Shown piece by piece: positions 9,290-61,471 of a stretch of 64,000 nt of DNA. The notes under the pieces were generated by a model. The model did no database searches. It was given only the letters and a program-made list of their open reading frames with translations, and had not been told where the DNA came from. The stretch lies in contig SVLW01000004.1 of the NCBI GenBank assembly GCA_015067705.1, positions 1-64,000 on the forward strand, read 5' to 3'. This DNA is from Oscillospiraceae bacterium (GTDB lineage: Bacteria; Bacillota; Clostridia; Oscillospirales; QAMX01). Numbering within the stretch: position 1 is the stretch's first letter; each line of letters starts with the position of its first letter. The position numbers and the translations under genes were made by a program.

Positions 9290-9605
9290 TCAGTTGACAG
9301 TGGAGAGTGGACAGTGGACAGTTGTGAATTGTGGAGTCGGGCAAAGCCCGACGAATTTTAGATGGGCAACAAAAAGGCTCCCCTTTCGCCAAAGGGGAGC
9401 TGTCGCCGATAGGCGACTGAGGGGATCGCGCGGCGCATTTCCTCATCCCGCGGCGTTTCGGTAGAATCGAACGTTTCAATCCCTTCAGTCTCGCTTCGCG
9501 AGCCAGCTCCCCTTTCCAAGGGGAGCCTTTTGATTGTTTTCCCAATTCCCGTCGGGCTTTGCCCGACTCCTTCCCTGTCCACTATCAACTCTCCACTGTC
9601 AACTA
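9290..9605. repeat. Modular repeat element E1 (heptad arms, two REP-like palindromes, B cassette)
   Basis: The left arm has in-register 7-nt words of type RTKGANA, and the right arm (9572-9605) is the inverted counterpart. Just inside each arm lies GGAG followed by the palindrome TCGGGC-AAA-GCCCGA, one copy on each side in opposite orientation. The middle (about 9376-9540) is an inverted pair of B cassettes with GGCTCCCC/GGGGAGC and GTCGCC/GGCGAC hairpins. The left end is 2 nt from the TetR stop and the right end touches the nagB terminator T-tract. Confidence 0.9.
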
Positions 9606-10777: not shown

Positions 10778-11974
10778 ATGATCAAAGTTGCCATGATAGG
10801 TGTCGGTGCGATCAGCGGCATCTACCTCAAGAATCTGACCCTGACTTTCAAGGAAGTGGAGCTCATCGGCGTCTGCGACCTGATTCCCGAGCGCGCTGAG
10901 AAGGGCGTGCAGTATGTAAAGGACGAGATCGAAAAGGGCGCAAAGGTGTGCGTGCCGAAGATCTATAAGGATATGCACGAGGCATTTGCCGATCCCGAAG
11001 TGGATGTGATCCTGAACCTCACCCGTCCTTATGAGCACTATGAAGTGACGAAGGCTGCTCTCCTGGCCGGTAAGCACGTCTTCTCCGAAAAGCCCCTGGC
11101 CGTTGACATGGAAGAGGCCGACGAGCTGGTGGAGCTTGCAAAGAAGACCGGTCTCTGCATGGGCGGCGCACCGGATACCTTCATGGGCGCCGGCATCCAG
11201 ACCTGCCGTCAGATCATCGACAGCGGCATGATCGGCGACGTCATCGGCGCCAACTGCGCCATGGTCTGCCACGGCCACGAGACCTGGCATCCGGATCCCG
11301 AGTTCTATTATAAGCGCGGCGGCGGCCCCATGATGGATATGGGTCCCTACTACGTCACCGCTCTCGTCCAGCTCATTGGCGAAGCCAAGGGCGTTATGGG
11401 CATGACCAAGAAGAGCTTTGACCAGCGCATCATCACCTCCCAGCCCCATTACGGCGAAGTCGTCGATGTTGACATCGACACCTATCTCGCCGGTAACATT
11501 CTCTTCACCAACGGCGCCATCGCCTCCATCTTCACCACCTTTGATGTGTACTATGGCCGCGGCGCACAGGCCAGATTTGAGATCTACGGCACCAAGGGTA
11601 CCCTGGTGGTCCCGGATCCCAACACCTTCGGCGGCCCCATCCTCCTGCTCCGTCCCGAGGATCAGGCAGCAGCACCCAAGGTGGACCCGGCCCTCATGAA
11701 GAAGGAAGCCCCCAACTTCTACGCCGGTTATAAGGAGATCCCGCTGATGTTCGACTATAACGAGAACAGCCGCGCTCTGGGTCTCTCCGATATGTGCAAG
11801 GCCATCGAGACCGGCCGCGACTTCCGCGCCAACTATCAGCAGCAGCACCATGTGCTGGAGATCCTGACCAGCTTCTCCAAGTCCTGCGAAAAGGGCGAGT
11901 ACATCCCCTTAAAGACCAAGTATTACCGCACCGAACCCATGAAGAACAACCCCATGCACGGCATTCTGGACTAA
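10778..11974 (+). CDS. Gfo/Idh/MocA family sugar oxidoreductase (paralogue 1)
   Basis: 398 residues; the ATG follows AAGGAGGACGAAC. The Rossmann motif GVGAISGIY is at residues 8-16. FSEKPLAVD supplies the conserved Lys of the EKP motif. The C-terminal domain has GGGPMMDMGPYYVTALV, where the usual His of the D-x-G-x-H type motif is replaced by Tyr, a variant shared with the paralogue at 12932. It probably oxidises or reduces a hydroxyl of a sugar or glycoside with NAD(P). It is followed by a TIM-barrel isomerase (37 nt) and a second paralogue, so the three likely act on one carbohydrate. The substrate is not determinable here. Confidence 0.88.
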   Translation: MIKVAMIGVGAISGIYLKNLTLTFKEVELIGVCDLIPERAEKGVQYVKDEIEKGAKVCVPKIYKDMHEAFADPEVDVILNLTRPYEHYEVTKAALLAGKHVFSEKPLAVDMEEADELVELAKKTGLCMGGAPDTFMGAGIQTCRQIIDSGMIGDVIGANCAMVCHGHETWHPDPEFYYKRGGGPMMDMGPYYVTALVQLIGEAKGVMGMTKKSFDQRIITSQPHYGEVVDVDIDTYLAGNILFTNGAIASIFTTFDVYYGRGAQARFEIYGTKGTLVVPDPNTFGGPILLLRPEDQAAAPKVDPALMKKEAPNFYAGYKEIPLMFDYNENSRALGLSDMCKAIETGRDFRANYQQQHHVLEILTSFSKSCEKGEYIPLKTKYYRTEPMKNNPMHGILD

Positions 11975-12931: not shown

Positions 12932-14044
12932 ATGGAAAGAACACGTATCGCTTTTGTTGGGGTCGGCAACATCTCCGGCATCTACTTAAAGAATCTCACC
13001 ACGACATTCAAGAATGAAGTGGAGATCGCCGGCGTGTGCGACCTGATCCCGGAGCGCGCACAGAAGGCCCACGACGAATACGGCGTCCATATCTATCCCA
13101 CCTATGAGGACATTCTGGCAGACGACAGTGTGGAGATCATCTTAAACATCACCCGTCCCAACGAGCATTATGACATCACCATGGCAGGCCTCCGCGCCGG
13201 CAAGCATGTCTATTCCGAAAAGCCCCTGGCAACGGATTTCCAGAAGGGTCTTGAACTGGTGCAGTATGCCCGTGAGCATGGCCTCATGCTGGGCGGCGCG
13301 CCGGACACCTTTATGGGCGGCGGCATCCAGACCTGCCGCAAGCTGATCGACGACGGCTATATCGGCCAGCCGGTCTATGCAAACGCCGTGCTCTTAGGCT
13401 GCGGCCACGAAGTGTGGCATCCCGGCCCCGAGTTCTATTATGAATACGGCGGCGGCCCCATGCTGGATATGGGCCCCTACTATGTGACTGCCCTCGTCAA
13501 TCTCCTTGGCCCCGCGGTTTCCGTCATGGGCCGTGCCAAGATCACCTATCCCCAGCGCGTCATCACTTCCCAGCCCAATTACGGCAAGATCATCGACGTG
13601 GAAGTGCCCACGCACTATAACGGCATCATCGACTTCGCAAACGGCTGCACCGGCTCCATCGTCACGTCCTTTGACGTGCAGTACGGCCGCAAGGGCCGCT
13701 ATATCGAGGTCTTAGGTTCCGAGGGCACCCTGCGCGTGCCGGATCCCAATGACTTCGGCGGCAAGATCGGCCTGCTGCGCGCCGGCGAATCCGAATTCAC
13801 CGAGATTCCCATCGTGCGTCCCTATACGGAAAATAGCCGCGGCCTGGGTCTCGCGGACATGGCCCACGCCCTGCGCACCGGCCGCCGTCACCGCGCCAAC
13901 TGCGACCAGACCTGCCACGTGCTGGAGATCATGACCGCCTTCGAAAAGAGCTCCAATGAAAACCGCACCATTAAGCTCCAGACCACCTTCGAGCGCAGCG
14001 AACCCATGAAATACACCAAACTCCCCGGCATCCTGGACGACTAG
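12932..14044 (+). CDS. Gfo/Idh/MocA family sugar oxidoreductase (paralogue 2)
   Basis: 370 residues, clearly paralogous to the 10778 gene along its length: the same GVGNISGIYLKNL start, YSEKPLATD, GAPDTFMGGGIQTC and GGGPMLDMGPYYVTALV. It again has Tyr in the usual catalytic-His position. It is about 28 residues shorter than paralogue 1, lacking an insertion near residue 310 of that protein. AGGAG lies before the ATG. It may be a partner subunit or act on the product of the first enzyme. The stop is immediately followed by repeat module D and a bidirectional terminator. Confidence 0.88.
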   Translation: MERTRIAFVGVGNISGIYLKNLTTTFKNEVEIAGVCDLIPERAQKAHDEYGVHIYPTYEDILADDSVEIILNITRPNEHYDITMAGLRAGKHVYSEKPLATDFQKGLELVQYAREHGLMLGGAPDTFMGGGIQTCRKLIDDGYIGQPVYANAVLLGCGHEVWHPGPEFYYEYGGGPMLDMGPYYVTALVNLLGPAVSVMGRAKITYPQRVITSQPNYGKIIDVEVPTHYNGIIDFANGCTGSIVTSFDVQYGRKGRYIEVLGSEGTLRVPDPNDFGGKIGLLRAGESEFTEIPIVRPYTENSRGLGLADMAHALRTGRRHRANCDQTCHVLEIMTAFEKSSNENRTIKLQTTFERSEPMKYTKLPGILDD

Positions 14045-15089: not shown

Positions 15090-15164
15090 AATTGCACTCC
15101 TTTTTCTCTCTCCGGTCTATTATAGCGCGGGAAGGGGAGGAATGCAAGGGAGGGGGGAGATCGG

Positions 15165-15421
15165 AATGGAAAATGGAAAGTTGAAAATGAAGGAGTCGCT
15201 GGCGCGACAGGATTAGAGAACCCTCTCAGTCGCCTGCGGCGCCAGCTCCCCCAAAGGGGGAGCCAAGTGAGAAGAGGAATGCGCATATCTTTCGTTTCTG
15301 CAAACGCTGGCTTGGCTCCCCCTCTGGGGGAGCCAGCGCCGCAGGCGACTGAGAGGGCCTTCCCAATCTCGTCGGCGCAGCCGACACCACAACTGTCCAC
15401 TGTCCACTCTCCACTGTCCAC
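15165..15421. repeat. Modular repeat element E2
   Basis: The left arm has 7-nt words of the A-rich type (ATGGAAA, GTTGAAA). The left REP-like palindrome is GGAG-TCGC-TGGC-GCGA and the right is GTCGGC-GCA-GCCGAC followed by the complement of GGTG. The middle is an inverted pair of B cassettes (about 15216-15358) with CTCCCCC/GGGGGAG stems. The right end joins the secA terminator. Confidence 0.88.
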
Positions 15422-15422
15422 G

Positions 15423-15453
15423 AAAAAAGACCGCCTCTCGGGCGGTCTTTTTT
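15423..15453 (-). terminator. secA intrinsic terminator
   Basis: GACCGCC-TCTC-GGGCGGTC hairpin with A6/T6 flanks, directly after the secA stop. Confidence 0.9.
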
Positions 15454-18329: not shown

Positions 18330-18480
18330 GTGGACAGTTGAGAGTGGACAGTGGACAGTTTTGGTGTCGCCTCCGGCGACGGATTGGAATCCGCAGAACA
18401 TTTCAAACCTTCTGCGGATTTGACTCCGTCGGGCACAGCCCGACTCCTTCCCTGTCCACTGTCAACTATCAACTGTCCAC
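18330..18480. repeat. Modular repeat element E3 (compact cloverleaf form)
   Basis: About 150 bp. Both arms are 7-nt periodic and mutually inverted. The left palindrome is GGTG + TCGCC-TCC-GGCGA, and the right one is GGAG-type GTCGGGC-ACA-GCCCGAC read on the other strand. A third hairpin (AATCCGCAGAA/TTCTGCGGATT) occupies the middle. The right end is 8 nt from the dehydrogenase stop codon, with no other terminator between. Confidence 0.9.
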
Positions 18481-19505: not shown

Positions 19506-19534
19506 AGTATAACGCGAGATAAAAGAATTGACAA
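19506..19534 (-). promoter_or_regulatory. Promoter of the 2-hydroxyacid dehydrogenase, -35 inside element E4
   Basis: On the minus strand TTGTCA (19529-19534), 17 bp, TATACT (19506-19511). The -35 hexamer is part of the outermost heptad of E4. Confidence 0.75.
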
Positions 19535-19694
19535 TGGACAGTTGACAGTGGACAGTGAAGGAGTCGGGCTGCGCCCGACAGAGTTTAATCCGCAGAAAAT
19601 CCGAAATATTCGGCGGATTTGGAATTTTGTCGCCGAAGGCGACACCAAAACTGTCAACTTTCAACTATCAACTGTCCACTATCCACGGTCAACT
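19526..19694. repeat. Modular repeat element E4
   Basis: Compact form like E3. Left palindrome: GGAG + TCGGGC-TGC-GCCCGA. Right palindrome: GTCGCC-GAA-GGCGAC followed by the complement of GGTG. The middle contains AATCCGC and GCGGATT. The right arm ends at the rex terminator A-tract. Confidence 0.9.
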
Positions 19695-20480: not shown

Positions 20481-20892
20481 AGAGAACCCTCTCAGTCTCG
20501 CCTGCAGCGAGCCAGCTCCCCCAAAGGGGGAGCCAAGTAGGAACTGGATTGAACAGACTTTCAGATTCTGCATACGCCGGCTTGGCTCCCCCCTCCGGGG
20601 GAGCTGGCACGGCGCAAGCCGTGACTGAGAGGGCCCGCCGGTGCGGTGCGCAGAATCGCAGGTCACGGGCGAGCAATGCCCGCCCCTATATACATCCCAT
20701 TTCATTCCTCTGACCAAAAAGAGTGGGACGTCGGGGACGCCGTCCCCTACAAATGTCACCCCATTCAATCGTGCGAACCCGCACACGGGGCGATGTGGGC
20801 ATCGCCCCCTACAAATTCCATCGTACCTTTTTCTAAATCCCGTCGGCTCCGCCGACACCTTACTTCTTCACTATTCACTATTCCCTCTTACC
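20481..20892. repeat. Modular repeat element E5 (composite, left arm missing)
   Basis: It begins with an inverted pair of B cassettes (20484-20636, CTCCCCC/GGGGGAG stems). Three C-type palindromes follow: GGGCGAGCAATGCCCG near 20668, GGGGACG-CC-GTCCCC near 20735 and GGGCGATG-TGGG-CATCGCCC near 20791, each followed by CTAYA. It ends with one REP-like GTCGGC-TCC-GCCGAC and a right arm with 7-nt words of the ATAGTGA type. It adjoins the clpC terminator. Confidence 0.85.
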
Positions 20893-25031: not shown

Positions 25032-25166
25032 AGTGGACAATTGATAGTTGACAGTGGACAGTTATGGTGTCGCCAAGGGCGACGGATTCCGATCCGCTGC
25101 GGATAAAAAACTTGTCGGCGCAGCCGACTCCTTCCCTGTCCACTGTCCACTCTCCACTGTCAACTA
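25032..25166. repeat. Modular repeat element E6 inside the ctsR operon
   Basis: About 135 bp between ctsR and mcsA. Five left-arm heptads run into GGTG + TCGCC-AAG-GGCGA. The middle hairpin is ATCCGC/GCGGAT. The right palindrome is GTCGGC-GCA-GCCGAC then the complement of GGAG, followed by the inverted right arm. The right-arm end supplies the ctsR stop codon (TAG on the minus strand). Confidence 0.9.
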
Positions 25167-32325: not shown

Positions 32326-32507
32326 CCTTGGCTCCCCCTTTGGGGGAGCAGATTCGTACACGGGACGATGTGGGCATCGTCCCCTACATGGCTCCCCCTC
32401 CGGGGGAGCTGTCGCCGCAGGCGACTGAGAGGGCCCATCGTGCGTTTCCGCACGACGCACCGGCGAATTGCGGAAACGGAACGTCGGGGACGCCGTCCCC
32501 TACGAAA
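32326..32507. repeat. Repeat element E7 (B and C modules only)
   Basis: No heptad arms. It has half B cassettes (GGCTCCCCCTTTGGGGGAGC and GGCTCCCCCTCCGGGGGAGC with GTCGCC-GCA-GGCGAC). Two C palindromes (CGGGACGATG-TGGG-CATCGTCCC and GTCGGGGACG-CC-GTCCCC) each end in CTAC, i.e. GTAG before the palindrome on the other strand. It lies between the PfkB-type kinase terminator and the phosphotransferase promoter. Confidence 0.82.
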
Positions 32508-37884: not shown

Positions 37885-38023
37885 AGGAGTGGAGAGTTGA
37901 CAGTTGAGAGTGGACAGTGAAGGTGTCGGCTACGCCGACAAGTTGGAATCCGCAGCGGATCGGAATCTGTCGCCCTTGGCGACACCATAACTGTCAACTG
38001 TCCACTCTCAACTCTCCACTACA
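37885..38023. repeat. Modular repeat element E8
   Basis: Compact cloverleaf form: 7-nt arms, left GGTG + TCGGC-TAC-GCCGA, middle ATCCGC-A-GCGGAT, right GTCGCC-CTT-GGCGAC then the complement of GGTG, and the inverted right arm. It starts at the sfsA stop and ends at the MATE terminator A-tract. Confidence 0.9.
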
Positions 38024-50321: not shown

Positions 50322-50518
50322 AGTTGATAGTGGAGAGTTGACAGTGGACAGTGAAGGAGTCGGGCTGTGCCCGATAGGAATTAGCAGAGCCAAATTTGGT
50401 TTTGATCAGACTTTCTTGGCTCCCTCATCAGAGGGAGCCGGGGGTACACGGCGAATTTCAATCCTGTCGCCTCCGGCGACACCACAACTGTCCACTGTCA
50501 ACTTTCCACTGTCAATTC
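50322..50518. repeat. Modular repeat element E9
   Basis: 7-nt arms at both ends. Left GGAG + TCGGGC-TGT-GCCCGA, right GTCGCC-TCC-GGCGAC then the complement of GGTG. The middle holds a half B cassette (TTGGCTCCCTCATCAGAGGGAGCC, 50419-50442). Confidence 0.88.
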
Positions 50519-61043: not shown

Positions 61044-61093
61044 GTTCATAATCCTCCCGGGTGTAGTTTTCTATATTGTAACACTTTGAGGCA

Positions 61094-61471
61094 GGAATTG
61101 AAAGTTGAGAATTGAAAATTGTGGTGTCGGCTGCGCCGACGGATTTGGGAATACAGAGAACCAAGCCTTCCCCTTGAGGGGAAGGTGTCAGCGAAGCTGA
61201 CGGATGAGGTGGCCCCGGGAAAAGATCAGTATTTTGGGATGCAAGAACAGCCATCTGACCCTTCGACCACCTCATCAGTCGCCTGCGGCGACAGCTTCCC
61301 CTCAAGGGGAAGCCTTTGGCGCTTATCTTCCCCATCTCGTCGGCCCATGGCCGACACTACTTTATGCAAATGTGCACGTTGTCGTGAAGGTTATCATTCT
61401 TTCGCTCGAACTCTCGTAGCGTATTGCCGCCACTCAGTGGCTTCAATTTTCAACTTTCAATTCTCAATTTA
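61094..61471. repeat. Modular repeat element E10
   Basis: The arms are 7-nt periodic with an A-rich word (ATTGAAA type), and the right arm is inverted. Left GGTG + TCGGC-TGC-GCCGA, right GTCGGC-CCATG-GCCGAC. The middle is an inverted B pair of a CTTCCCC-TTGA-GGGGAAG variant. Module D copy 2 (61376-61441) lies between the right palindrome and the right arm. Confidence 0.85.
61376..61441 (+). repeat. Repeat module D, copy 2
   Basis: Starts ACGTTGTCGTG and ends GCGTAT then TGCCGCCACTCAGTGGC; 66 bp, matching the ends and length of the copy at 14044-14108. Confidence 0.75.

Follow-up and report, generated by a model that had tools for sequence, protein, structure and literature searches.

Module B, a two-hairpin repeat with the tag CTCAG, is on the best reading of our data a real and separate REP-like family that nests in other palindromes and that by its tag stands outside the GTAG and CGTC groups. 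Its standing as a separate family is shown, as are dimers, covarying stems, fixed loop ends and nesting above a crude chance model, and how it moves is something that we infer. The window in which it was recognized, 64,000 nucleotides of contig C64, belongs to a 2.195 Mb genome of 73 contigs with a stated completeness of 94%.

Element E2 (15159-15421) is a nested palindrome that reads A arm, B half, 43-nt center, inverted B half and inverted A arm; at 15221-15357, two inverted two-hairpin B half-units are enclosed by a second palindrome, A. The first half-unit (15221-15267, plus strand, 71.9 bits to model R1) consists of the tag CTCAGT, the hairpin CGCC-TGC-GGCG and the hairpin GCTCCCCC-aaa-GGGGGAGC. 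The second (15311-15357, minus strand, 59.4 bits to R1) is inverted, and the 43 nt between the two (15268-15310, no strand) include GCAAACGC, which is common to copies on contigs C28 and C34. The left A arm (15159-15214, minus strand, 47.0 bits to model R2) contains a GTCGC..GCGAC hairpin with a 7-bp repeat tail, and the right A arm (15365-15421, plus strand, 78.1 bits to R2) a GTCGGC-GCA-GCCGAC hairpin with 7-bp repeats. Folded as DNA, 15168-15425 reaches -83.4 kcal/mol, far below the -42.2 that its shuffles average (z -9.5). In general form, a B half reads CCCTCTCAGT, a variable-stem hairpin and then CAGCTCCCCC-aaa-GGGGGAGCC(AAG), that is, the tag, a stem of varying sequence and GCTCCCC/GGGGAGC. 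The tag is CTCAGT in most halves, with TCAGT or TCCGT variants in others; CTCAGTC is the majority reading in the own genome, and CTCCGTC occurs in some relatives (G054, G070). In an A half, 7-bp repeats with the pattern TNTCMAC follow a GTCG../..CGAC hairpin. The covariance models were built from 28 B halves and 25 A halves; own-genome B scores are partly circular because the model was made from own-genome copies, whereas hits in other genomes are not.

The preliminary description had read inverted pairs in E1, E2, E5 and E10, and hits of the B model bear this out, with orientations that differ between elements. The tags point inward in E1 (A arm 9300-9358, minus; B 9373-9425, minus; B 9480-9530, plus; A arm 9545-9603, plus) and in E10 (61090-61316; A arm 61090-61146, minus; B 61162-61209, minus; B 61270-61316, plus; right A arm interrupted, by eye), across gaps of 54 and 60 nt, respectively. 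They point outward across a gap of 43 nt in E2 and E5; in the latter, the pair (20487-20537, plus; 20581-20633, minus) lacks a left A arm, and a right A arm (20836-20892, plus) lies 202 bp away behind a GTAG hairpin that starts at 20812 (minus). E1/E10 and E2/E5 are different B types. Half units had been proposed for E7 and E9: E7 (32327-32433) does hold one B half (32387-32433, minus), together with a GGGGAGC hairpin remnant and a GTAG hairpin from 32387 (minus) and with no A arm visible by eye, but E9 (50323-50516) is an A frame that retains only part of the B center and a remnant of the second hairpin. The small ATCCGC/GCGGAT hairpin reported for compact copies is present in E3 (18330-18480; ATCCGCAGAA..TTCTGCGGAT), E4 (19527-19679), E6 (25033-25164) and E8 (37889-38019), all of them compact A without B. 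Elsewhere in the window, three direct repeats with a spacing of 2130 bp and 74-82% identity relate 11000-11380 to 13130-13510, and these are probably paralogous genes.

Across the own genome, at least 66 B halves and at least 91 A halves were scored from 150 of more than 1000 first-look candidates for each, and weak copies of either may therefore be missing. Joining scored halves within 350 bp gave 61 groups, including 18 A frames without B, 12 of the order A-B+B-A and three of the order A-B-B+A; one further frame holds two B pairs, one has an extra A arm, and others are short of an arm or a half. Eight groups hold B without any A arm within 350 bp, among them C71:62847, which has a weak A match nearby (29.1 bits in a local scan), and C35:2628 and C39:59173, which lie outside the locally scanned stretches. 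Since A occurs without B and B without A, B is a separate family. The genome search suggested in the preliminary description, for B alone and for A with and without B, thus supports its view of one repeat family nesting in another, and the contrary case, in which B is never found separately, fails on these eight groups. Within two-armed A frames lie 17 of 24 B pairs, on contigs C28, C34, C64 and C71 (binomial P 7.6e-6, under a crude chance model in which A frames make up 27% of a crudely called intergenic sequence; the copies themselves are not independent). B also tends to be central, with correlated gaps on its two sides (rho 0.64, P 0.011, n=15). Both modules crowd on the same four contigs, which amount to about a tenth of the genome; among 20 stretches from other contigs, 18 had no B match, the one from C55, where B is known to occur, gave two, and the last could not be read. 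A mis-binned contig was considered and rejected, C28 excepted: the SecA adjoining E2 is 85% identical to that of the same-genus genome G002 and at most 72% identical to those of other genera, the tetranucleotides of the contig agree with those of other contigs (lowest value 0.863, in one C28 stretch), and genome contamination is stated as 0. One B half at C52:53156-53229 (L017:8156-8229) has a long A run between C and G runs as the loop of its second hairpin, which is perhaps an assembly or homopolymer artifact.

In tag-outward copies, the center is mostly 43 or 20 nt, and in tag-inward copies it is 60 or 54 nt. Some copies of B cut an A hairpin (for example C64:64963, C71:19493 and C55:886), and some tag-inward copies or remnants sit, by eye, inside a ATCCGCAG..CTGCGGAT hairpin; more than one insertion event of B is therefore likely. 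The idea that B replaces the middle hairpin of A is therefore not fully accurate: C71:13840 and C34:19594 retain ATCCG(C)AG and/or CTGCGGAT arms of that hairpin next to the insert (by eye). Insertion junctions had also been proposed as a check. Exact junctions of B into A were not recovered because the A copies are too diverged, and neither an exact empty site for this insertion nor a target duplication was found; base-resolved insertions were obtained for other modules in genome G123 only. Synteny offered one comparable element-bearing gap, that of compact E6, which is missing from the corresponding gene gap of G002; its boundary is imprecise and, as E6 is A without B, it gives no junction of B in A.

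The 59 B stems that were scored in the own genome are 4-6 bp long, and 58 of them are unbroken and have one of eight sequences (such as CACGGC, GTCGCC, GTCAGC and CTCGCC), with one broken pair in the remaining half. Many alleles have a T-C mispair directly outside the stem. Loops mostly have three or four bases, and 56 of 59 read TNC or TNNC (41/42 of the three-base and 15/16 of the four-base loops; one loop is longer). In other genomes the same ends were found in 35/46 (TNC) and 11/13 (TNNC) loops, for the 59 of 75 unique halves that could be scored; in the other 16 the stem was short or could not be parsed, and some of these stems contain one mispair. Contigs from a viral collection contributed 43 more halves with chiefly TGC and TTC loops. 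A loop T is contacted by the IS608 and ISDra2 transposases as described in PMC8266576. Read on the opposite strand, the B loops are GNA or GNNA, which according to PMC4686876 form extraordinarily stable DNA mini-hairpins. Module A follows no single loop rule; at least four unbroken stem pairs occur in 66/79 A hits, and of the other 13 three look, by eye, like GTCG stems with one mispair. An alignment of 25 A rows, picked as intact arms, pairs in 131/131 cells with 12 double changes and 0 G-U pairs. When pair counts were compared against shuffles, stems were found to covary. The two halves of a B pair share a stem allele in only 2/24 pairs, against 5.8 expected (P 0.043). On a viral-collection contig, B half-units are repeated in tandem at L184:1691-2068 (period 66, 5.7 copies, 92% matches); from one unit to the next both stem arms change, and the stem switches between two fully paired alleles. 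Template switching can produce paired stem changes in a single step, as set out in PMC8794818; selection on the hairpin is an alternative source of such changes.

B is patchy within its class. In a class-wide draw, the B model matched 25/148 genomes at E <=1e-5 with the own genome included, that is, 24/147 other genomes of the class Clostridia; a phylum-wide draw gave 2/119, namely the own genome plus a second from its order, with no B outside the class among these 119 genomes. Both draws were filtered strictly and so miss weaker matches. With E2 as a DNA query, 7/20 genomes matched, own genome included, and two same-genus genomes did not. An exact match to one B half was found in two named records, a Clostridia MAG from goat rectum and an Oscillospiraceae MAG, and plasmids gave no match. 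Settings elsewhere include tandem arrays (L170, L184) and a pair without an A frame (L171, by eye).

Insertion of hairpin modules into hairpins could be followed in G123, where elements 162-364 bp long, with AAATTTCAGTTT..AAACTGAAATTT ends and mostly T and A flanks, enclose B-like pairs. Two copies are set apart by a 57-bp module of two hairpins that lies within the second hairpin of one half (151/158 aligned bases identical), and another two by an extra 41 bp inside that 57-bp module (204/215 identical). These copies show hairpin modules inserting into hairpins, not B into A. The G123 element (L113, L114, L117, L118 and L120) has recently been amplified, and its hairpins are nested as many as four layers deep by eye (four in L120).

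A third module, C, occurs as GTAG hairpins of the form GTAG GGGGCGATG CCCA CATCGCCCC, in the window at 20780-20813 (in E5) and 32355-32388 (in E7). Four contigs of the own genome carry 20 GTAG-hairpin sites, 17 of them C-like by eye; in a raw scan of tags, which terminator A-runs dominate, GTAG ranks only twelfth. All six RAYT-like loci examined carry between 2 and 10 GTAG hairpins each, which lie in or beside RAYT-like genes of G011, G121, G035 and G003, and one hairpin in L142 is identical to own-genome copies of module C. Judged from these sequences, module C looks like a GTAG REP. In L145 of G003 and L143 of G121, inverted GTAG hairpins lie within the RAYT-like open frame, apparently as in-frame insertions. 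The RAYT-like proteins of the relatives score 57-82 bits to NF047646, and only that of L139 passes the cut-off of 80. G070 has two RAYT-like stretches with internal stops by the RAYT model and no Y1 match with the Pfam model.

No such partner was found for B. In the own genome, no protein matched the RAYT model at E <=1e-6, and a RAYT of its own was rejected as the mover of B: the sole Y1 protein is IS200-like (149.8 bits to the IS200 model) with no B nearby. No B half was detected at E <=1 in 17 Y1 loci (51 kb in all), six of them RAYT-like. RAYTs of any type show no association with B (15/25 B genomes and 61/123 others, P 0.39). Among the matches listed, a short RAYT type occurs in at least 12/25 B genomes and at least 12/123 others (P 3e-5), a type that was defined post hoc after the rows had been inspected and a P value that ignores kinship. 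G123, a genome rich in near-identical copies, gave no Y1 match and falls outside the RAYT-positive set.

It is somewhat probable, in our estimation, that B is an independent, non-autonomous palindromic family of REP/BIME type, which would move by an HUH-type route and change by template switching. Its unit is the tag CTCAGT and two hairpins, occurs singly, as an inverted dimer or as a head-to-tail array, and lies preferentially inside other palindromes, frame A here and other settings elsewhere. A folded, single-stranded B half could be recognized in trans by an HUH-type enzyme (Y1 or RAYT-like), and B could have spread while such an enzyme was present in a host that now shows no RAYT. Template switching during replication may copy one stem arm onto the other, which would explain why stem pairing is kept intact while one allele gives way to another as a whole, and the mostly unlike stems of the two halves might prevent the dimer from turning into a single long, perfect palindrome. 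A broader proposal, which we advance tentatively and consider possible rather than probable, is that unrelated hairpin families use the palindromes of these Clostridia as landing sites, inserting at the center or in the stem and giving multi-layer elements; both stem arms would be rewritten at once via template switching, and B, parted from its enzyme, would represent a third superfamily of tagged REP-like repeats (CTCAG).

Other origins were weighed against this. B, or A with B, could be a MITE, an internally deleted insertion sequence served by a DDE transposase in trans, and the inverted ends and mostly T/A flanks in G123 do suggest a DDE-type carrier; such flanks fit TA-duplicating families. 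However, no full-length element with the same ends was visible among 23 end matches in G123; beyond CCCTCTCAG, B copies of the own genome share no outer inverted repeat, and they vary in their settings; and their stem alleles swap beside a fixed tag and loop, which is unusual for a MITE. We regard this origin as doubtful. That B entered A just once and the composite then spread, with nesting simply inherited, would account for the groups of copies on C28 and C34 that have a common center, flank order and stem-allele order; it is made unlikely by the three B types (outward with gaps of 43 or 20, inward with a gap of 60) at different depths in A, by the copies that cut an A hairpin, and by the presence of B outside A frames and, in other genomes, in different surroundings. 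Fold-back, in which whole elements arise by inverted duplication of one arm and nesting is merely apparent, would fit layers that are roughly symmetric in position. It is rejected as highly improbable on comparison of the arms and halves: A arms are about as alike within elements (0.770) as between them (0.757; P 0.15, n=30), and the stems of paired B halves are less alike than chance.

A role in RNA, with hairpins kept by selection as terminators, mRNA stabilizers or processing sites, draws on the positions of the elements. A5/T5 runs adjoin 29/78 element ends against 167/2440 control 14-mers (P 7e-14; C28, C34, C64 and C71, for example at 9604 and 15422), gaps between genes hold elements in 12/32 convergent, 15/81 tandem and 3/32 divergent cases, and a minus-strand terminator-like score was obtained for one A hairpin of E2. 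The elements seem to sit beside intrinsic terminators. The lack of G-U pairs in the 131 A-hairpin cells points the other way, as do an Rfam search of the window with 0 matches at gathering thresholds, the failure of the E2 query in the two same-genus genomes, and the fact that inverted pairs within inverted pairs require no RNA role; selection on RNA is an improbable explanation of the elements.

Should B prove to be a separate tagged family throughout Clostridia, it would broaden the REP kind, whose repeats are best known from Proteobacteria. It would also provide a clear case of whole-stem replacement with nearly no broken intermediates and a natural system for reading hairpin insertion at base resolution, and, should palindromes indeed serve as landing sites, structure-targeted insertion would have a test bed in these genomes. 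Stacked repeats of this sort can mislead assembly as well as terminator and RNA-structure prediction in metagenomic Clostridia.

A description of the B family in Clostridia was not found in the mostly open-access literature, as far as the accessible text of sources including PMC12306157, PMC8040213 and PMC7771070 goes. MITEs such as Correia, ERIC and RPE are small, non-coding and multicopy with inverted ends. B is like them in these respects, but it has no demonstrated constant terminal repeat or target duplication; flanks of possible TA type were seen in G123, and terminal repeats together with target duplications were not seen in the own genome. The pneumococcal BOX, RUP and SPRITE repeats are intergenic in a Firmicute and often clustered together, and BOX is a composite with a varying number of modules, BOX and RUP having terminal repeats and target duplications (as described in PMC3049150); unlike B, BOX modules as presented there are not layered inverted pairs. 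The CGTC REPs described in PMC3733652 are tagged palindromes as well. They have no dedicated transposase and are arranged mainly as head-to-head dimers, in which several of the families favor unlike partners, and REP dimers or elements occur inside longer palindromes in three species, so that both the nesting and the orphan status of B have precedents there. B shares all of these traits with them, but has no CGTC tag and differs in stem and loop length from their stem of 8-9 bp and loop of 4-5; the words Firmicutes and Clostridi are absent from the text of PMC3733652. The GTAG REP/REPIN/BIME family, moved by RAYT (TnpA-REP) and fitted by module C of the same genome, differs from B in that B has the tag CTCAGT where GTAG would stand 5' of the hairpin, two hairpins per unit and no adjoining RAYT flanked by B. 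It resembles B in having a short tag by a variable hairpin (58/59 stems unbroken in B), inverted dimers (24 B pairs in the scanned stretches), spacers of tens of bases, an intergenic location and intermixing with other repeats. In its tag, hairpin, inverted pairs and mixing with other palindromes, B behaves like a REP dimer.
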